Made by a program: the position numbers and the translations under genes. Source: an uncultured Blautia sp. (lineage in GTDB: Bacteria; Bacillota; Clostridia; Lachnospirales; Lachnospiraceae). Taken from it: 7,937 bases of DNA. The notes below the pieces were generated by a model, which was not told where the DNA came from, made no database searches, and saw only the letters and a program-made list of their open reading frames with translations. The DNA is taken from NCBI GenBank assembly GCA_900552095.1, contig URYM01000081.1, positions 1 to 7,937 on the forward strand. Direction: 5' to 3'. This document shows positions 1 to 7,937 of this stretch, piece by piece (positions within the stretch are counted from its first letter, which is position 1; each line of letters starts with the position of its first letter).

Positions 1-21
1 GGAGATGTGTATAAGAGACAG
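1..21 (+). other. Sequencing adapter remnant (Nextera mosaic end)
   Basis: Bases 3-21 read agatgtgtataagagacag, which is the 19-base Tn5 mosaic end used in Nextera libraries. The two G bases before it match the end of the read-2 adapter rather than the read-1 adapter. This is untrimmed library sequence, not genome. It creates a false GTG start at base 7 that would extend the sir2 frame by 47 residues. Confidence 0.96.
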
Positions 22-147: not shown

Positions 148-915
148 ATGGACAGAAAACTGGAACGATTACAGAAGATGATAGAAGAAAGCCGCTATAC
201 AGTTGTCTTAAGCGGTTCGGGAATGCTGGCGGAATGTGGGACTACCAGCCTGAAAACCCAGGAGCGGGCGTATGATATTGAGGAAACTTACGGTTCTTCA
301 CCGGAGTATATTTTTACCAGTGCGTATTATAATACCCGTACGGAACAGTTTTTCCATTTCTATAAAGAAGAGATTTTAAAAAAGATTCCCGAGCCCACGG
401 AGAGTTTCTATGTTCTGGCAGAGATGGAAAGAGCCGGAAAGCTGGATTGCATTGTGACAGCCAATATGTTTGACCTGTGCCAGAGAGCGGGCTGCACGAG
501 AGTGATCGACCTTCACGGCAGCATTTACAGAAACCGCTGTCCGCATTGCGGGAAAGAATTTGATAAGGATTATATTCTGGAGGCGGAGGGAGTTCCCAGG
601 TGTGACGTCTGCGGGACTGTGGTGCGCCCTCAGCTGACTCTCTTTGGAGAGATGATGGACAGTCAGCTGGTTGCGGAGACAGCGGAAGAGATTGAGAAGG
701 CAGACCTTCTGATACTGTTGGGAACTACGCTGTCTTCTGAAGTATATGTACATTATGTGCGGTATTTTGAGGGCAGGCATCTGGTGATTATCCACCGGGA
801 TCCCCACCATTCTGATGAGAAGGCGGATCTGGTAATTTTAAAGGAACCCAGAGAGGTACTTCCCTGTCTGAAACTGGATGGGAAAAAAGAAAAGAACCAG
901 GGAGAAAATTCTTGA
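148..915 (+). CDS. Divergent Sir2-family (sirtuin-like) protein
   Basis: A 255-residue protein with the sirtuin layout. Sirtuins are NAD-dependent protein deacylases or, in some branches, ADP-ribosyl transferases. Visible landmarks: the Gly-rich NAD loop G23-S-G25; the T104-A-N106 segment where sirtuins have TQNID; the catalytic-type histidine H123 in LHGS; a zinc-finger set C131, C134, C152, C155; FGE at 166-168; and LGTT at 191-194 in place of GTS. Several NAD and nicotinamide pocket positions differ from consensus: the first loop has GSGMLAECG instead of GAGxSxxSG and lacks the downstream Phe-Arg, the NID aspartate is Phe108, and the usual IN near the end is IH. The start at 148 is chosen because AGAGGAG (134-140) lies seven bases upstream; the longer frame begins in adapter sequence. 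It may be an active but unusual sirtuin or one with altered chemistry. The neighbours do not suggest a substrate. Confidence 0.85.
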   Translation: MDRKLERLQKMIEESRYTVVLSGSGMLAECGTTSLKTQERAYDIEETYGSSPEYIFTSAYYNTRTEQFFHFYKEEILKKIPEPTESFYVLAEMERAGKLDCIVTANMFDLCQRAGCTRVIDLHGSIYRNRCPHCGKEFDKDYILEAEGVPRCDVCGTVVRPQLTLFGEMMDSQLVAETAEEIEKADLLILLGTTLSSEVYVHYVRYFEGRHLVIIHRDPHHSDEKADLVILKEPREVLPCLKLDGKKEKNQGENS

Positions 916-941
916 CAGAGAATACAGATTTCCAGTACAAT
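912..941 (+). promoter_or_regulatory. Sigma-A type promoter for the M60/cohesin-like operon
   Basis: A perfect -35 TTGACA at 912-917 is followed after 18 bases by TACAAT at 936-941, five of six matches to the -10 consensus. The -35 box overlaps the TGA stop of sir2 (913-915). Transcription would begin near 948, giving a leader of about 35 bases before the start at 983. It implies that the protease operon can be expressed independently of sir2. Confidence 0.75.
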
Positions 942-982: not shown

Positions 983-1063
983 ATGAAGCGAAGAATTGCC
1001 AGACTTCTGGTCTGCGGGCTGCTGGTGCAGAGTCTTCTGGGAAATGCGGCGGTGACCCGGGCT
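983..1063 (+). other. Signal peptide of the M60 protein
   Basis: Residues 1-27 have a basic start (MKRR), a hydrophobic core rich in Leu and Val, and a likely signal peptidase I site after TRA (residue 27). The cysteine at residue 11 sits inside the hydrophobic core without a proper lipobox, so lipoprotein processing is unlikely. Confidence 0.85.
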
Positions 1064-4000
1064 GAGGAACTGCCGGTGACGGAAGCGGCCGAGGAGCAGG
1101 AGTTGACAACCAACACGCCTCACCAGACAGAAGAGGAGACAGAAGATTCCGGAGAAAAACCGGAAGAAGAGCAGCCGGAAACCGAGCAGAACCAGAAAGA
1201 AGACACGGAGACTGTGCCGGAGGAGAAAGAAGAAACAGAAGCTGATCCGGAACAGGAAACGGAAGAAAATAGCGAGCCGACGCCTGAACAGACGCCGGCT
1301 CGAGATGTGAAGGGAAGTCTTCAGGTTCAGCTGAGCTCAGCGCTGGGCGGGCCGGACCATCAGAGTTACACGGCAGTGCTGAAGGGATCTTCCGGGAGCG
1401 AAAGCAAGATGGAACTTTCGGAGATGGAAACGGCTGTCACCTTTTCTGATCTGGAGGATGGAGACTATGAACTTCTCGTATCAGGGAAAGGGTTTGAGAC
1501 GTACAGTCAGAAACTGCAGATCGGGAAGAAAGCGTACAGTGTTCAGCTGTATACAGATTTTATCGGAGGATTTGATTTTTCAGAAGGGAAAAGACATCCT
1601 GGTGTTCTGCTCTACGGAGATGTGAACGGGGATCAGAAACTGGATGAAAAGGATCAGAACCAGATCATTGCAGCTGTGGAAGATCAGACTGCAGAGGGAG
1701 ATTTGAACGGAGACGGAAGTACAACGCTCGTGGATCTGCAGTATTTTGCAGCCCATTATAAGACGGGGCTTGACACGAAAGCTTCCGTGCAGAGCAGCAT
1801 TCCCGGGGCGATGTCAGATACCAGTGCAGAGGGAACTCAGATCGTGGGCGGAGAAGAACAGCTGGATAAGCTTTTTCAGGCAGAAGGCAGCGTGCAGCTG
1901 AAGCCGGAGAAAGGCGGGGCGATCACAGAATCCAATCCGGTTGCCTTAAGTTTTGATTTTGCTTTGGCAGGAGATCCTGTTATGGAGGGGGTCGTAATTC
2001 ATGCCCCGCAGAGTGGAAACGGAGCCATTGAAAATGGAAAGGTGCAGATCACTTATCTGGATGAGAACGACCAGGAGAAACAGATGGAAGTTTCAGTGGG
2101 CGCATCAGCCAGAACATCCGGAGCGTCTGTAAATCGGGAACCGGACGGAACGCTGGTGATCGATTTTGGAAAGCAGATCGCGGTAAAAAAGGTAGTTCTG
2201 GTGGTGACCGGAACGAAGAATCAGGGAAATCTGGCTGAGATTTCCCAGGTGGAATTTTTGAATGATATGGAGTCCAGGATTCCGGCGCCGGAGATGGATA
2301 TCCCGGAAAATCTGGCTGCCCGGGCGGGGAATAAGGAATTTACCCTGAGCTGGGATCCGGTCAGAAATGTAACGGGATATGAAGTCTCTATTTCCAGCGA
2401 GGGAAGAGAAGAACTGAGAAAGACAGCGGACAACACGATGGATGTGAAGCTGTTTCTGAATGAAAAGCTGGAAAATAAGCAGGAATATGTGGTCCGCGTC
2501 CAGTCTGTGAACGGGCAGTGGAAGAGCGGATTTGGAGAGGCCATAACAGTCATTCCCCGGACGGATGAGAAACCGGCGCCTCCGGACAATCTGAAGGTGA
2601 CCGGCATGTACCAGGGGATAAGAGCTTCCTGGAAGCAGATGAAGGATACGGATTCCTATAATCTGTATTACCGTGAGGAAGGGGAAGAGGCTTATCAGAA
2701 GATCGAGGGGATCAAGAGCAATCAGTATCAGCTGGAAGGCCTGAAAGAAGATACGGTCTACTATGTATATGTGACAGGAGTAAATGAACTGGGAGAGGGA
2801 GCGCCTTCTCTTGAATCCTATGCACAGACGGCCAGTTTGAAAGCTGCAAAAATGCCGGGCTATAAACTGCTGAATACAGATGCGGGTGAAGGTAAGCTGA
2901 GCAGCCATATCGAAAGTGCCGTAAGAGGCCGGGGAACTATGGTGGACAGCCCCCTGGATGAGGCTGGGGAGAAGACAGCACTGGGTGTGTTTGATAAGAG
3001 TTACCGTTCTTACTATTTTATGGAGGACTGGGATGACGGAGTGGCATACCCGGGAGAAGGAAAGGGAATTACCGTAACCCTGGATGATTTCTATAAGATG
3101 GATACCTTTACTTTTGCAGAGTCGGAGGATCTGGGAACCGGATTTAATGCGGCATCCGTCTTTTACTGGGATGAGGAGAGCCAGAAGATGGAGCAGGCCT
3201 CCTGTACGCTACAGCAGAAGACTTCAGAAAACGGAAGAAAATATTATCTCATCCGTCTCGCAGATCCGGTGCGGACCAACAAGCTCCGTTTCGGCTTTGG
3301 AAGAGGCGGGAATGTGAGAAATATCCGGATCGCCGAACTGAATCTTTATCTCTATGACAGTCTGGCGGATGATATTGAGGCGCTGTACGCGGATGACCTG
3401 TATACGACGCTGCGGGCGGATGTGACAGAGAAGACTCTGGAGGAACTTCAGAACCGTCTGGACACCCCGGACGAGGTGAGCCAGGAGTATCATCCGGACC
3501 GGGAGCAGCTGCAGAGAGAGCTGGATACGGCAAAGGCAATCTTCCGGGAGGAAGCGCTTCAGGAAGCGGTGAAGGTACATACTTCCATCACAGCCAGTGC
3601 GGATGGCCATCTGAATGGAGTGGGCGGATTAAATGACTGGCAGCCGCTGGGGATTTCCGCCTATGAAGGGGAAGAACTGACCGTTTATGTGGGAGCACCC
3701 GGAAAGAAAGCAGGAGATAATACAGATCTTACGCTGGTGGCTACTCAGTACCACGGCGAGGCGGCTTCCTGGAGCCGGGAGATCGGGCGTCTGAAGGTGG
3801 GAAAAAATGAGATCACAGTTCCCGGCGGTATGCAGAGTATCAATGTAGAGCACGGAGGTGCGCTTTATGTGCGCTATACCGGAAGAAAGGACGCTGCGGA
3901 ATATGGAATCCGTGTGAGCGGCGGAACCAGGATTCCGGTTCTTGACCTTTATCAGACGACGGAGGAAGAGCGTCAGGAGAGGCTGCTCTCTTATGTGGAA

Positions 4001-6259
4001 GCGCTGGAGAAGCAGGCGGCTGATCTGAAGAACGATCACGAAACACACCGGAAAGAAAGCCGGGTGGTGGATTACGATTTTGACCAGGCAAACTGTATCC
4101 TGGGAACCACGGATATTCTGATGAAAGAGATGATGTATTCCGTTCCGGGCGGTCAGATTTTGAGTGCACTGGGAAGCGGAAGCACGGCGGAGAAAGCGGA
4201 GAAGCTGGATCAGTCCCTGAAGGCAATGGAACAGCTGATGCATCTTTTCTATCAGCATAAGGGACTCAGCGATGCGGCTGATGCAGGCGGAAAGGACAGG
4301 CTGCCGGCACGTCATTTAAATATCCGTTACATGCGTATGTTTGCCGGAGCATTTATGTATGCTTCCGGAAATCATATCGGAATTGAGTGGGGCTCTGTCC
4401 CTGCGCTGGCATCTTCTGTGCCTGTTGTCAGCGAAAACGGAAAATATAAGAGTGGAAATCTCTTTGGATGGGGGATTGCCCACGAGATCGGACATCAGCT
4501 GAATCAGGGACAGTATGCAGTGGCGGAGATCACAAACAATTATTTCTCCCTGCTGGCACAGGCCAAAGATACCGCTGACTCGGTACGGTTTGATTATCAG
4601 GATGTCTACGAGAAGGTGACTTCTCAGACGATGGGCTATTCCGATAATGTATTTGTGCAGCTGGCGATGTACTGGCAGCTTCATCTGGCCTATGACAGAG
4701 GATACAATTATAAGACGTATGACACCTGGAAGGAGCAGTTTCAGAATCTTTTCTTTGCCCGCGTAGATGCTTATGCAAGGGATGCTTCCCGGGCGCCTGC
4801 GCCGGAGGGAATTGCCCTGAGCCTCGAAAGTAAAAATGCGGATCAGAATCTGATGCGGCTGGCCAGTGCGGCGGCAGGAAAAGACCTCACAGAATTTTTC
4901 ACCCGCTGGGGACTGACACCCGATGCGGCTACAGCTGCCTATATGCAGCAGTTCCCTGAAGAGGAGAGAGCGATCTATTACGTCAATGATGATGCCAGAA
5001 GCTATGAGATCGAGAATGGAACGAAGGGCACGATCAAGGGAAAAGACGTGATCTCCCCGAAGAGCAGTGTTTCTGTCAGCGATCAAGTGCCGAACCAGGT
5101 AACCTTAAACCTGAAAACCACAGCGGCAGATCCGAATGTGATCCTGGGATATGAGATTACCCGCTGCACGATGGAACAGGGACAGATCCAGCGCGAAGTT
5201 GTGGGATTTGCCACAGAGGAGACGTATGTGGATACGGTTTCTACCATCAATAACCGGGTAGTAGCGTATGAGGTGGCTGCGGTGGATCAGTTCCTGCAGC
5301 GTTCAGCAGTTCAGAAAATCGGAGAGGTGAAAATCTCGGGAGATGGAAGCCTGGGCAAGGAAAAGATGACGCTTACCTCTAATCTGGTATCGGACCAGGA
5401 TGAGAGCAGACCCGGTGAAGAGGGAAATCCCTGTGAACCGCAGAGCGCTCCGGCTTATGAGCAGATCATTGATGGAGATTATTCCGCGGTATACACCGGA
5501 AGCTCTGAAAAGGCAGATCCGGAATTGACTTTCAGCTTCCAGCGTTCTTTTGAGGTCTGCGGGCTGAAATATACAGTGGCAGACGGAGCGGCGCCCATCG
5601 AAGCGTATGAGATTCAGGTAAGAAGCGGCGGTGAGTGGAAGACCGTAAAGAGCGGATCCTTCCAGATGGAAAATGGAAGCCAGACCGTTTACTTTGAAAA
5701 TGAAAATCAGGATCCCTGGGTTGCCACCTACGATGCGGAGGCCGTGCGGCTGGTTGCCAAAGGACAGGCCGGAAAGAAAATCTCCGTTTCCGAGATTGAT
5801 ATTCTGGGTCCCAGCGGAGACAATATTGAATTTTATGAAGACGGGACACCGGCGATCGGTATTCTGAAAGAGGATTTTGTGTACGACCAAAATACCGGAG
5901 ATGCGATTCCGAAGGGGTCTTTGATCTTTACAGGAACTTATAAAGGAAATCCTGCCTATAATGTAGTCATGCTTTATGACGAAGAAGGAAATCTGGTGGG
6001 TGGAAGCGACAGCCAGGGCGCATTAAAGGCACAACAGATTATTCTGGCAGAAGTGCCGGAACATGGCGAATTAGGCGAGACTTCGGATGGAAGCTGGATC
6101 TATTATCTGGAGCCGGGAAGCTTTACAGAACTGCCCGGCCAGGTGAGAGCGGAGCTGTACCGGGTGGACAATGCCATGACGAATGAAGGCCAGCGTCTGG
6201 TCAGCGATACGATGCTGAAAAAACTGCCGGAAAAACTGCCGGAGATCAGCCTGAAATAA
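983..6259 (+). CDS. Secreted multimodular M60 metallopeptidase with dockerin
   Basis: A 1758-residue exported zinc protease. M60 (enhancin-like) peptidases cleave mucins and other O-glycoproteins outside the cell. Order of parts: signal peptide 1-27 (basic start, hydrophobic core, TRA before the cut); acidic Glu/Thr/Pro-rich stretch 28-106; small beta domain, perhaps carboxypeptidase-regulatory-like, 110-192; dockerin 208-262; discoidin-like domain about 300-430; two FN3 domains 433-526 and 530-618; second discoidin-like domain about 625-792; charged helical linker 793-863; M60 beta-sandwich 866-988 and catalytic part about 990-1315; FN3-like domain 1341-1452; third discoidin-like domain 1460-1612; C-terminal module 1613-1758. 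Zinc ligands are H1167 and H1171 in HEIGH plus E1182, ten residues on, with E1168 as catalytic base. There is no LPxTG signal or membrane segment at the C-terminus, so surface retention would depend on the dockerin or the sugar-binding domains. It is intact and is followed 21 bases later by a cohesin-like anchor gene. The catalytic family is confident; the discoidin and FN3 borders are approximate. Confidence 0.92.
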   Translation: MKRRIARLLVCGLLVQSLLGNAAVTRAEELPVTEAAEEQELTTNTPHQTEEETEDSGEKPEEEQPETEQNQKEDTETVPEEKEETEADPEQETEENSEPTPEQTPARDVKGSLQVQLSSALGGPDHQSYTAVLKGSSGSESKMELSEMETAVTFSDLEDGDYELLVSGKGFETYSQKLQIGKKAYSVQLYTDFIGGFDFSEGKRHPGVLLYGDVNGDQKLDEKDQNQIIAAVEDQTAEGDLNGDGSTTLVDLQYFAAHYKTGLDTKASVQSSIPGAMSDTSAEGTQIVGGEEQLDKLFQAEGSVQLKPEKGGAITESNPVALSFDFALAGDPVMEGVVIHAPQSGNGAIENGKVQITYLDENDQEKQMEVSVGASARTSGASVNREPDGTLVIDFGKQIAVKKVVLVVTGTKNQGNLAEISQVEFLNDMESRIPAPEMDIPENLAARAGNKEFTLSWDPVRNVTGYEVSISSEGREELRKTADNTMDVKLFLNEKLENKQEYVVRVQSVNGQWKSGFGEAITVIPRTDEKPAPPDNLKVTGMYQGIRASWKQMKDTDSYNLYYREEGEEAYQKIEGIKSNQYQLEGLKEDTVYYVYVTGVNELGEGAPSLESYAQTASLKAAKMPGYKLLNTDAGEGKLSSHIESAVRGRGTMVDSPLDEAGEKTALGVFDKSYRSYYFMEDWDDGVAYPGEGKGITVTLDDFYKMDTFTFAESEDLGTGFNAASVFYWDEESQKMEQASCTLQQKTSENGRKYYLIRLADPVRTNKLRFGFGRGGNVRNIRIAELNLYLYDSLADDIEALYADDLYTTLRADVTEKTLEELQNRLDTPDEVSQEYHPDREQLQRELDTAKAIFREEALQEAVKVHTSITASADGHLNGVGGLNDWQPLGISAYEGEELTVYVGAPGKKAGDNTDLTLVATQYHGEAASWSREIGRLKVGKNEITVPGGMQSINVEHGGALYVRYTGRKDAAEYGIRVSGGTRIPVLDLYQTTEEERQERLLSYVEALEKQAADLKNDHETHRKESRVVDYDFDQANCILGTTDILMKEMMYSVPGGQILSALGSGSTAEKAEKLDQSLKAMEQLMHLFYQHKGLSDAADAGGKDRLPARHLNIRYMRMFAGAFMYASGNHIGIEWGSVPALASSVPVVSENGKYKSGNLFGWGIAHEIGHQLNQGQYAVAEITNNYFSLLAQAKDTADSVRFDYQDVYEKVTSQTMGYSDNVFVQLAMYWQLHLAYDRGYNYKTYDTWKEQFQNLFFARVDAYARDASRAPAPEGIALSLESKNADQNLMRLASAAAGKDLTEFFTRWGLTPDAATAAYMQQFPEEERAIYYVNDDARSYEIENGTKGTIKGKDVISPKSSVSVSDQVPNQVTLNLKTTAADPNVILGYEITRCTMEQGQIQREVVGFATEETYVDTVSTINNRVVAYEVAAVDQFLQRSAVQKIGEVKISGDGSLGKEKMTLTSNLVSDQDESRPGEEGNPCEPQSAPAYEQIIDGDYSAVYTGSSEKADPELTFSFQRSFEVCGLKYTVADGAAPIEAYEIQVRSGGEWKTVKSGSFQMENGSQTVYFENENQDPWVATYDAEAVRLVAKGQAGKKISVSEIDILGPSGDNIEFYEDGTPAIGILKEDFVYDQNTGDAIPKGSLIFTGTYKGNPAYNVVMLYDEEGNLVGGSDSQGALKAQQIILAEVPEHGELGETSDGSWIYYLEPGSFTELPGQVRAELYRVDNAMTNEGQRLVSDTMLKKLPEKLPEISLK
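1064..1300 (+). other. Acidic Glu/Thr/Pro-rich low-complexity region
   Basis: Residues 28-106, just after the signal peptide, are dominated by Glu with Thr, Pro, Gln and Asp and contain no predicted fold. Such a tether is typical of Lachnospiraceae surface proteins and probably spaces the folded modules away from the site of export. Confidence 0.8.
1604..1768 (+). other. Type I-like dockerin domain inside the M60 protein
   Basis: Residues 208-262 hold two calcium loops separated by a short helix. Loop 1 is DVNGDQKLDEKD (213-224), with D1, N3, D5, D9 and D12 all present. Loop 2 is DLNGDGSTTLVD (240-251), with D1, N3, D5 and D12 present but Thr at position 9. Each loop is followed by a helix-like hydrophobic stretch. 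Dockerins bind cohesins. This one sits near the N-terminus, between a small beta domain and a discoidin-like domain, whereas dockerins in cellulosomal enzymes are usually terminal. Confidence 0.85.
3578..4927 (+). other. Peptidase M60 domain (gluzincin, HEIGH plus Glu)
   Basis: Residues 866-1315. The N-terminal part (866-988) is beta-rich and matches the sandwich that precedes the catalytic fold in M60 enzymes. The zinc motif GWGIAHEIGHQ is centred on residues 1167-1171, with the third ligand E1182 in AEITNN, a segment typical of the family. The spacing of ten residues from the second His to the Glu falls inside the M60 HExxH-x(8-28)-E pattern. All three zinc ligands and the catalytic Glu are present, so activity is expected. 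Confidence 0.92.
5819..6256 (+). other. C-terminal module of unknown function in the M60 protein
   Basis: Residues 1613-1758 follow the last discoidin-like domain. The segment is beta-rich, with repeated Gly-Asn, Tyr and Asp positions (GSLIFTGTYKGNPAYNVVML) and an aromatic run near GETSDGSWIYY. It does not match a domain I can name with confidence. From memory, a similar tail occurs in other Lachnospiraceae M60 proteins. It could be a further ligand-binding beta-sandwich. Confidence 0.45.
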
Positions 6260-6267
6260 GAGGTGGG

Positions 6268-6273
6268 AAGGAG
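6268..6273 (+). promoter_or_regulatory. Ribosome binding site deciding the GTG start at 6281
   Basis: AAGGAG lies seven bases before GTG 6281. The other in-frame GTG at 6263 is only three bases past the M60 stop codon and has no usable Shine-Dalgarno sequence at a proper distance. The start at 6281 is therefore preferred. Confidence 0.8.
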
Positions 6274-6280
6274 AGAAAAA

Positions 6281-7105
6281 GTGAGGAAAAATAAAGGAAA
6301 TAAATACATCTTTTTGCTGATGTTCCTGTCTTTCTTTCTCTTTGCCGCACCGGTGCGGGCGGCAGAGCTGGAGGAAGTTCTGATCGAACCGAATCAGGAC
6401 CGGGCAGAGATCACAGTAACCCTTCCGGAGGAGCAGCAGGAGGAGATTACCTCTCTGCGTCTGGGATTTCAGCTGAAAGTGGTAAAAGGAGAGCCGGAGG
6501 GGGTGAAAGCGTCTTTCCTGTTTGCGGAAAATCTTCCGGCTGCCGTACAGGAATACCGGTATCAGAAGGAAAAGGAAACTCTGTACGTATATCTTTCCGG
6601 AAGAGAAGATCTTTTTAAGGAGCAGCAGCTCTCTTTAGGAACGATTCTTCTGGAAAGTTCACAGGAAGATGGCGCACAGGTATCTTTAAGCCTGATTCCG
6701 GATTCTCTGGAGCTTGTAAATCAGGCTTACGGCGAACTGGATGTAACGCTGGCAGAGGAGCCGGAAGAGTTTCTGACTGTGGGCCGGGGCGGAGAGCCGG
6801 AGGAGACGCCAACACCGGATCCGGAGGCGACTCCTGACCCGGAAGAAACGCTCACACCGACGCCGGATCCGGAAGGAACACCTGTTCCGGAAGGCAGTCC
6901 CACACCGGAGGAGGGGAATACGGTTGCCCCTACTCCCGGGAACGGAGCTGCAGAAGTGACACCGGCACCGTCTGGCGGAGAGGATGCAAAGGGAGCGCAG
7001 ACAAAGGATTCTCAGCTCCCTGCTGTGTGGGCGGCAGCTCTGCTCCTGGCAGCATCCGGGACAGCCCTGACCCTTAAACTGCGAAAAAGCAGGATGGGAA
7101 AATAG
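6281..7105 (+). CDS. Cohesin-like membrane-anchored surface protein
   Basis: A 274-residue exported protein, probably a cell-surface docking partner for the M60 enzyme encoded just upstream. Residues 1-27 are a signal peptide (basic start, Phe/Leu-rich core, VRA before the cut). Residues 29-160 are a predicted all-beta domain whose strand order resembles a cohesin: ITVTLPE, then ITSLRLGFQLKVV, a central LYVYLSG strand, LGTILL, and a closing GELDV strand. Residues 168-243 are a Pro/Thr/Glu/Asp linker. Residues 246-265 form one membrane segment followed by a basic tail (KLRKSRMGK). The sequence before the segment (TKDSQLPAVW) only faintly recalls a sortase signal and lacks a canonical LPxTG, so a plain membrane anchor is as likely. 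The gene is 21 bases from the M60 stop, with no promoter seen between them, so it is probably co-transcribed. The cohesin call rests on pattern and context; another Ig-like beta-sandwich is the alternative. Confidence 0.8.
   Translation: MRKNKGNKYIFLLMFLSFFLFAAPVRAAELEEVLIEPNQDRAEITVTLPEEQQEEITSLRLGFQLKVVKGEPEGVKASFLFAENLPAAVQEYRYQKEKETLYVYLSGREDLFKEQQLSLGTILLESSQEDGAQVSLSLIPDSLELVNQAYGELDVTLAEEPEEFLTVGRGGEPEETPTPDPEATPDPEETLTPTPDPEGTPVPEGSPTPEEGNTVAPTPGNGAAEVTPAPSGGEDAKGAQTKDSQLPAVWAAALLLAASGTALTLKLRKSRMGK
6365..6760 (+). other. Putative cohesin-like beta-sandwich
   Basis: Residues 29-160 of the anchor protein. The pattern of a short acidic strand, a conserved loop, a hydrophobic alternating strand pair, an exposed Tyr-rich strand (EYRYQKEKETLYVYLSG) and a late LGTI strand is what I expect from a cohesin-type fold of about 130-140 residues. 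Sequence identity to classical cellulosomal cohesins looks low. Confidence 0.5.
6782..7009 (+). repeat. Pro/Thr/Glu linker with imperfect repeats
   Basis: Residues 168-243 of the anchor protein contain imperfect repeats of the form TPTPDPE and related TPEE, VPEG and SPTPEE units. At DNA level ccggatccgga occurs at 6815-6825 and again at 6863-6873, exactly 48 bases (16 codons) apart, suggesting local duplication. The region is probably an extended wall-spanning spacer that lifts the folded domain off the membrane. Confidence 0.8.
7010..7102 (+). other. C-terminal membrane anchor
   Basis: Residues 244-274 comprise a hydrophobic Ala/Leu segment (about 246-265) with a Ser-Gly near its middle, then a tail of Lys and Arg. 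The layout mimics a sortase sorting signal, but the expected LPxTG is replaced by LPAVW and the Lachnospiraceae-type TGD by TKD. The protein is either retained by its membrane segment or handled by an atypical sortase. Confidence 0.7.
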
Positions 7106-7132
7106 AAAAAAACGTTTGAAAAAGCGTAAAAG

Positions 7133-7188
7133 CATGCAGGTTTCAGCTTTTATATGCCGGGAGGCAGGCTGGAACCTGCATGTTTTTT
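7133..7188 (+). terminator. Strong intrinsic terminator, probably bidirectional
   Basis: Bases 7133-7147 pair with 7168-7182 over fifteen positions with a single G-T wobble, around a twenty-base loop that holds a small inner hairpin (tgcc at 7155-7158 with ggca at 7163-7166). Six T bases follow at 7183-7188. On the minus strand the same stem is followed by cttttac and then by a second T-rich run. It sits between two convergent genes and can end both. Confidence 0.92.
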
Positions 7189-7223
7189 ATTTCACGGGAA
7201 ATCTTTATTATCAGCAGAAAATG

Positions 7224-7937
7224 CTAGAGTTTTCGGTGGTATCTTTTTTCGATAAAATAGATTAGAAAATAGAGGGTCATCGCCAGGATGCAGAGGAGCA
7301 CAATGCTCATGATTACCATATCCAGCCTGAAAACCTGGCTTCCGTAGATGATCAGGTAGCCCAGTCCCTGCCGGGCGCCGATGAATTCTCCGATAATAAC
7401 CCCCACAAGACAGAGTCCAATATTGATTTTCATGTTGCTTAAAAGATAGGGGATTGAGCCAGGCAGGATCACTTTAAAGAGAGCGTGGCGCTTTGTTCCG
7501 CCCAGGGTATAGATCAGCTTCAGTTTATCCGGATTCATTTCCCGGAAACTGGTATACAGGCTGATCACAGAGCCAAAAATGGCTACCGATATGCCGGCGG
7601 CGATGATTGTTTTCATATTTGCTCCCAGCCAGACGATAAGAAGGGGGGCCAGGGCTGACTTTGGCAGGCTGTTGAGGACTACCAGGTAGGGCTCCAGTAC
7701 CCGGGCAAAGCCGGGACACAGCCAGAGCAGGACGGCCAGGGACAGGGAGAGAAAAACAACCAGAAAGAAACTGATCAGAGTCTCCGCCAGCGTAATGCCA
7801 ATCTGCAGAGCCAGCTGTTCTTCCTGCCACATGGTGAGAAAAGTCCGGAAAACCCGGGAGGGGCTGCTGAAGATGAAAGGGTCAATCTGTCCGGTACCGG
7901 CGGCAGTTTCCCAGGCGAGAAGAAAAAGAATAAAAAG
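7224..7937 (-). CDS. ABC transporter permease, SsuC/TauC/ThiX type (partial)
   Basis: The last 237 codons and stop of an inner-membrane permease of the BPD_transp_1 family, which moves sulfonates, taurine, nitrate or thiamine-precursor-type ligands together with an ATPase and a binding protein. The reading frame stays open to the end of the window. The residues ahead of the Met at 7832 (AWETAAGTGQIDPFIFSSPS) match the family's N-terminal region with its conserved Pro-Ser segment, so that Met is internal and the true start lies beyond the window. About five hydrophobic segments are visible. The ATPase-contact loop is clear: YTLGGTKRHALFKVILPGSIP, the equivalent of EAAxxxGxxxxxxxxxxLP, followed by GEFIGARQGLGYLI. 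The gene runs toward the M60 operon and shares its terminator. The substrate cannot be told from the permease alone; ThiX- and SsuC-type uptake are both possible. Confidence 0.9.
   Translation of the reverse strand, partial: LFILFLLAWETAAGTGQIDPFIFSSPSRVFRTFLTMWQEEQLALQIGITLAETLISFFLVVFLSLSLAVLLWLCPGFARVLEPYLVVLNSLPKSALAPLLIVWLGANMKTIIAAGISVAIFGSVISLYTSFREMNPDKLKLIYTLGGTKRHALFKVILPGSIPYLLSNMKINIGLCLVGVIIGEFIGARQGLGYLIIYGSQVFRLDMVIMSIVLLCILAMTLYFLIYFIEKRYHRKL

Follow-up and report, generated by a model that had tools for sequence, protein, structure and literature searches.

Surface-tethered cohesin proteins are among the closest parallels to the locus described here; one of them, OlpA of Clostridium thermocellum, has a single cohesin and is attached through SLH modules. 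Cohesins of this kind, standing outside the main scaffoldin, are described for OlpA and OlpC in PMC12811415. Clostridium perfringens has five cohesin proteins, each of which, according to PMC12997984, contains a glycoside hydrolase domain as well and links enzyme to enzyme. The same source, which describes the Limousia mucinolysome, bases its survey on Pfam cohesin models, which miss the domain reported below, and its main text contains no word starting with "M60". The present locus lies in 7,937 nucleotides of DNA from an uncultured Blautia sp. (contig URYM01000081.1 of assembly GCA_900552095.1; this whole stretch is referred to as the window) and consists of a gene for an M60-family metalloprotease with a dockerin followed by a gene for an exported anchor protein with a cohesin-like domain.

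The two genes very probably form a dedicated calcium-dependent lock that holds a single M60 protease on the outside of the cell. A dedicated docking pair had been proposed in an earlier, sequence-only reading of the window and is now supported by the cohesin model, by the conservation of the pair, and by dockerin-less M60 proteases that lack the partner. The protease would be secreted, and its dockerin would bind the cohesin of the neighboring protein in a calcium-dependent manner; the linker of that protein would carry the cohesin through the wall, and linker and membrane helix together would keep the enzyme attached to the cell surface. The docking mechanism is well supported; binding, calcium dependence, display, and substrate are what we infer. 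The features of the pair are as follows.

983..6259, + strand: gene for an M60-family metalloprotease of 1758 amino acids with a signal peptide (open reading frame; Pfam PF13402; the 137-member cluster P0006 starts here)
1595..1759, + strand: dockerin module with calcium loops at 1619-1654 and 1700-1735 (Pfam PF00404, E 0.0035, below cut-off)
4409..4912, + strand: M60 peptidase domain (Pfam PF13402, 7.5e-14; HEIGH at 4481-4495, downstream Glu codon at 4526-4528)
6281..7105, + strand: gene for the exported anchor protein with the cohesin-like domain, 274 amino acids, GTG start (open reading frame; homologues P0001-P0003 start here)
6359..6778, + strand: cohesin-like domain
6788..7018, + strand: Pro/Glu/Thr-rich linker (from the sequence; length differs between strains)
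7019..7102, + strand: C-terminal membrane helix with a basic tail (18 residues of hydropathy 1.79, followed by KLRKSRMGK)

Protease, dockerin, and anchor protein

The peptidase domain scores 52.4 bits against the PF13402 cut-off of 25.8 bits and contains an HExxH motif with a downstream Glu; the His, Glu, His, and Glu are invariant in 36/36 aligned relatives. A PDB sequence search related the domain to the solved M60 proteins 5kdj (1e-26) and the ZmpC glycopeptidase 6xsz (2.7e-18), which makes a mucin-type glycoprotein the likely substrate; by analogy with characterized M60 glycopeptidases, this would be O-glycosylated.

The Dockerin_1 model (PF00404) misses its cut-off in the window, with 17.9 versus 22.9 bits, and passes it in the genomes of 11 of 16 relatives, 10 of these matches lying in the protease frame as judged by length and place. 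The calcium-ligand Asp residues are kept almost throughout the related proteases, at positions 1 and 12 of the first loop in 78/79 each and at positions 1 and 12 of the second loop in 77/79 and 79/79, respectively (79 of the 80 loci surveyed below; L053, which begins after the dockerin region, was left out). An AlphaFold2 (AF2) model of the module, with a predicted local distance difference test (pLDDT) score of 82, has the two expected helices, giving the layout of a type I dockerin: two calcium loops with Asp at positions 1 and 12 and, in the predicted model, a helix after each. In a Foldseek search with this model, the first 18 rows were all cohesin-dockerin, scaffoldin, or dockerin entries, with E values of 0.23 to 1.8, and no row reached 0.001 or better. 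Judged by its sequence, the dockerin is real despite the sub-cut-off Pfam score. No C-terminal anchor was seen in the sequence of the window protease, and the earlier description of a near-canonical dockerin on a protease without a surface anchor holds.

The anchor protein has no Pfam match at an E value of ≤1, and the Pfam cohesin model (PF00963) has no match in the window. A PDB sequence search with the anchor protein produced only weak matches within or running into the linker (E 0.051 or worse), and the domain profile against PDB sequences returned nothing useful; fold comparison alone gave an answer. The predicted structure of the domain has the beta-sandwich (jelly-roll) fold of solved cohesins, and its top fold matches include 3ul4 and 4dh2, the cohesins of C. 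thermocellum OlpA and OlpC. A cohesin fold is therefore a confident prediction for the front domain of the anchor protein, and what had been an inference in the sequence-only reading now has a predicted structure and a fold search that place the domain among cohesins. The remainder of that description, an exported protein with a linker and a membrane anchor, was likewise recovered as a signal peptide, the Pro/Glu/Thr linker, and the C-terminal helix; the signal peptides of both window proteins were called from sequence and hydropathy. An LPXTG motif was not found in the C-terminal part (7019..7102). The number of linker repeats differs among strains (P0001-P0003 have full lengths of 266 to 282 amino acids), and P0005 leaves the frame within the linker and loses the membrane helix, as a real variant or a sequence error.

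Conservation, distribution, and fusion of the pair

The protease scan of species genomes detected 430 relatives, of which the best 80 loci were kept. A candidate next gene was found in 75 of these; 74 of the 75 carry the cohesin-like domain by the iterated profile, and in the 75th locus, L055, the domain is fused to the protease. In each of the 80 loci, the domain profile matched one open reading frame; it matched no other of the 10,350 six-frame open reading frames in 86 loci. Since the window and 72 of the same loci went into building this profile (A2), the count of 80/80 is partly circular; the window domain alone, used without a profile, was found in 68 of the 75 next genes at an E value of <1e-3, a count free of this circularity. 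Among the 80 profile matches, 77 start ≤329 bases past the protease and 3 lie inside the protease frame; L016, L028, and L072 have only truncated domain copies, at the contig end. Over 74 pairs, the intergenic gap, taken up to the most upstream start, has a median of 19.5 bases. In the window, the listed open reading frames open at 965 and 6263, and close homologues (P0006, 1758 amino acids; P0001-P0003) start at 983 and 6281; the latter starts therefore give the gap of 21 bases between the protease and anchor genes that had been reported earlier.

Anchoring was surveyed in 74 partners, those of 73 loci and the window, excluding L055 and the truncated L070. All 74 have an N-terminal hydrophobic segment, and 64 have a C-terminal membrane helix; in 4, the helix lies further in. 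No clear anchor was seen in the partners of L002, L027, L030, L065, and L071. In the partner at L057 (L057:14902-15993), choline-binding repeats replace the membrane helix, another way of holding the wall. As read from these sequences, a constant cohesin-like domain with a variable anchor fits a docking role.

Among 100 genomes sampled from the family to which G005 (Dorea sp. 5-2) belongs, 7 had the domain, and the same 7 had the dockerin-bearing M60 protease. By coordinates, the pair is adjacent or fused in six of these; in G058, its members are on different contigs. An eighth family genome with an M60 protease, G070, has a shorter frame (872 amino acids) without a dockerin and no cohesin-like domain; its three weak dockerin matches are on other contigs than the M60 gene. 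A class-wide sample yielded 2 positives among 291 genomes, one adjacent and one fused. In 138 genomes of the Eggerthellaceae, the domain profile found 7, the Pfam M60 model 18, and the dockerin profile 15. When 19 loci from this family were read out, 16 held an M60 protease of the type described here, and the next gene was cohesin-like in 14/14 loci with sequence past the protease; the other two loci end 98 bases after the protease or inside it. Seven of the 14 cohesin-like next genes had been missed by the genome search (weakest local E value, 0.0023). The dockerin was found in 15 of the 16 loci, and in L119, that stretch reads N; the genome in question, G469, was for this reason set aside as a counterexample of a partner without a dockerin. 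In L122 (G470), the protease gene is broken into an N-terminal dockerin piece and a C-terminal piece, and the partner is intact.

The gene-neighborhood survey proposed in the sequence-only reading thus found the pair conserved wherever it could be judged. The pair is present in two phyla, Bacillota and Actinomycetota; the tree requires one change between them, and transfer between phyla is therefore not claimed. Judging from genus and isolate names, most hosts are likely animal gut bacteria.

Three Eggerthellaceae M60 proteases lack a dockerin. Two of them, L118 (G446) and L120 (G491), have no cohesin-like neighbor and possess a C-terminal membrane helix of their own, which in L120 follows an SKTGD motif. 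The third, L114, was set aside for the question of the neighbor, its 3' end being cut by the contig. The sequence-only reading had named a dockerin-less M60 protease that keeps its neighbor as one case that would speak against it; the dockerin-less proteases of G070, L118, and L120 are all without the partner. Because L118 and L120, which have no partner, carry their own helix, the dock and the built-in anchor look like alternatives in these few sequences.

When genes that are otherwise separate occur as a fusion, this is classical evidence of a shared function of their products. In L055, L069, and L080, which form one clade in the tree, the domain is fused to the C terminus of the protease, and after it a second dockerin-like stretch takes the place of the membrane helix, so such a unit would dock onto another scaffold. 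The second stretch is confirmed by Pfam in L055 (1.6e-9); in L069 and L080, the best Pfam dockerin is the first one, and the second is a reading from the sequence. In the divergent L106, a single frame likewise encodes protease and domain (domain E value, 3e-13), with no second dockerin by Pfam, and in G114, the protease and domain matches fall within one 2099-amino-acid frame. That the genes are functionally unrelated neighbors whose cohesin and dockerin resemblance is accidental or vestigial might be argued from the failure of either module to pass a Pfam cut-off in the window; conservation in 80/80 loci and across two phyla, the fusions, and calcium ligands that are nearly always kept make this explanation hardly credible.

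Copy number, specificity, and competing explanations

In the genomes behind the loci, 16/16 contained exactly one cohesin-like domain (E ≤ 0.001) and one dockerin of the M60 type (E ≤ 0.01), which fits a private one-to-one lock. In place of the tandem cohesins of a scaffoldin, the window anchor has one domain, and the 16 relatives have one domain and one such dockerin each, which tells against a cellulosome or mucinolysome, but some relatives have more dockerins. A search of 12 genomes with PF00963 gave no match at the cohesin-like gene in any of them; 9 were without a Pfam cohesin at an E value of ≤0.001, and 3 had Pfam cohesins, one of them below cut-off. Amedibacillus dolichus (G006) has separate classical Pfam cohesins and dockerins away from its M60 pair (loci L081, L084, and L085, with the cohesins in frames of 2048 and 2318 amino acids and the dockerin in one of 634). 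G475:C29 and G476:C2 each have another dockerin match, located in a second frame (1915 and 1865 amino acids, respectively) that is perhaps a second M60 copy. Of the earlier notion of a one-enzyme system, the single dockerin and cohesin of this kind stand; in some relatives, further dockerins or classical cohesins limit it.

Two comparisons addressed specificity between the partners. In a sliding distance test (72 rows; numbering from 965), cohesin divergence was best tracked by protease window 232-290 of 172 windows, which covers the second dockerin loop, the helix, and some residues beyond; window 222-281 ranked 4. The result is mildly positive but weak evidence because the windows overlap and the genes are coinherited. 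Residue covariation between protease and cohesin was measured as mutual information over 70 rows, with three near-copies left out.

Several observations weigh against docking. The best-tracking window runs past the dockerin, and windows starting ahead of the dockerin, 192-251 to 212-271, rank only 14 to 35 of 172 on the partial measure. Covariation gave a null result: the dockerin was not enriched, accounting for 2 of the 100 highest-ranking pairs (expected, 3.2) and for 7 of the 200 highest (expected, 6.3). Of the 73 domains, just one is matched by PF00963, a sequence-model rather than a structural criterion, and this match is weak (E 0.012). In L060, the first dockerin loop is degenerate, and 6 of the 74 partners have no membrane helix, one of them having choline-binding repeats. 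Weaker dockerin matches occur in 17 of 93 family genomes without the cohesin-like domain; the partner therefore accompanies the M60 dockerin in particular rather than dockerins in general. Further dockerins are present in three of the seven positive family genomes, with totals of 2 in G031, 4 in G045, and 4 in G114.

These extra dockerins, the 3 of 12 genomes that have Pfam cohesins (in one case below cut-off), and the second, C-terminal dockerin-like stretch of the fused forms would suit a larger complex of the cellulosome or mucinolysome type, with the dockerin binding a multi-cohesin scaffoldin encoded elsewhere and the small protein acting as one dock among several. We consider this very unlikely given the one dockerin and one cohesin of the M60-pair type in all 16 genomes and the 9 of 12 genomes without a Pfam cohesin. 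The null covariation result would also suit another alternative, that the anchor domain is a cohesin-fold adhesin for a glycan or host protein, that the dockerin binds elsewhere, and that the genes are together as both act on mucus. A fold does not prove a ligand, and collagen-binding and pilin domains appear lower in the fold lists of the domain. An adhesin is nevertheless improbable: the same 9 genomes lack any other Pfam cohesin, yet exactly one cohesin of the new kind is present in 16/16, and the fusions, the co-occurrence, and the own anchors of two dockerin-less M60 proteases better fit a physical partner. Docking of the protease onto its neighbor is the preferred interpretation.

Surrounding features and comparison with known systems

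The remaining features of the window are the transcription signals and the other protease domains.

912..941, + strand: promoter-like site of sigma-70 type, TTGACA-18-TACAAT (consensus scan, 11/12; prediction only)
1430..1543, + strand: PEGA-like domain, N-terminal to the dockerin (Pfam PF08308, E 0.0024, below cut-off)
2288..2821, + strand: fibronectin type III region in two stretches (Pfam PF00041, 6e-20, best stretch 2579-2821)
3572..3916, + strand: M60-like N-terminal domain (Pfam PF17291, 1.1e-5)
5459..5701, + strand: F5/8 type C (CBM32-like) domain (Pfam PF00754, 9.2e-8)
7128..7187, + strand: intrinsic-terminator-like hairpin with a T run (folding energy of stretch 7118-7195, -38.1 kcal/mol; z -6.5)

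The first fibronectin type III (fn3) stretch was located by PDB matches from residue 442 onward. In the open reading frame listing, both genes of the pair lie on the + strand, at the coordinates first assigned to them, between the promoter-like site and the terminator-like hairpin; both signals are predicted and agree with the shared promoter and terminator of the earlier reading. Directly upstream is a gene for a Sir2-family protein (148-915, +; PF02146, 1e-29, with weak zinc-ribbon matches), whose start at 148 is a reading from the sequence. Past the terminator, on the opposite strand, is an ABC transporter permease (7224-7832, -; Pfam PF00528, 1.6e-18), for which the closest NCBIfam models, SaoP and taurine/sulfonate permeases, were all below their own cut-offs. 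The first bases (window 3-21), AGATGTGTATAAGAGACAG, are those of the Nextera transposon end, so that the edge of the contig retains sequencing adapter.

A Pfam-based cohesin-dockerin survey would miss the present cohesin, as 72/73 members are unmatched; if the docking interpretation is true, genomes scored as cohesin free in such surveys would carry it, and the pair would be a one-enzyme relative of the cellulosome. Should binding be confirmed, a defined way of retaining a glycoprotein-cutting enzyme on the cell would be known for many cultured and uncultured species, and the pair would offer a minimal cohesin-dockerin system, with one partner each, for the study of specificity. A report of an M60-dockerin/cohesin pair was not found in the open-licence literature searched.

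Like OlpA and OlpC (3ul4 and 4dh2), the anchor protein would present a type I cohesin on a surface-tethered protein that takes dockerin proteins directly; those cohesins belong to a full cellulosome with many dockerins, whereas here a solitary cohesin and dockerin are adjacent and the client is a protease. The cohesin-dockerin enzymes of C. perfringens are similarly noncellulosomal and animal associated with single cohesins, according to PMC12997984, and their PDB entries 2jh2, 2vo8, 2w1n, and 2ozn appear in the fold-match lists of the domain and dockerin. In contrast to that system, the cohesin here is on an anchor and not on an enzyme, the L055, L069, and L080 fusions coming closest to the C. 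perfringens plan. The Limousia mucinolysome (PMC12997984, 2026) shares gut bacteria, a mucin target, dockerin-bearing peptidases, and a wall-anchored cohesin protein, cSca5; it differs in having five scaffoldins, two with tandem cohesins, and 21 dockerin-bearing carbohydrate-active enzymes (CAZymes). The M60-like peptidases of host-associated microbes (PMC3267712, 2012) are of the same catalytic family and have CBM32 and fn3 modules, but in the accessible text, a dockerin is given for 2 of 415 proteins, the word cohesin is absent, and surface features are on the M60 proteins themselves. The parts of the present system are of known kinds; it is set apart by the dedicated, solitary, genetically linked pair, the protease as the client, its occurrence in two phyla, and a cohesin family not recognized by Pfam. 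With somewhat less assurance than for the lock itself, we consider it probable that the locus represents a third plan of cohesin-dockerin use, a private one-to-one lock encoded as a widespread two-gene cassette in both Bacillota and Actinomycetota, with a single mucin-type glycopeptidase displayed through a cohesin family unseen by current models.
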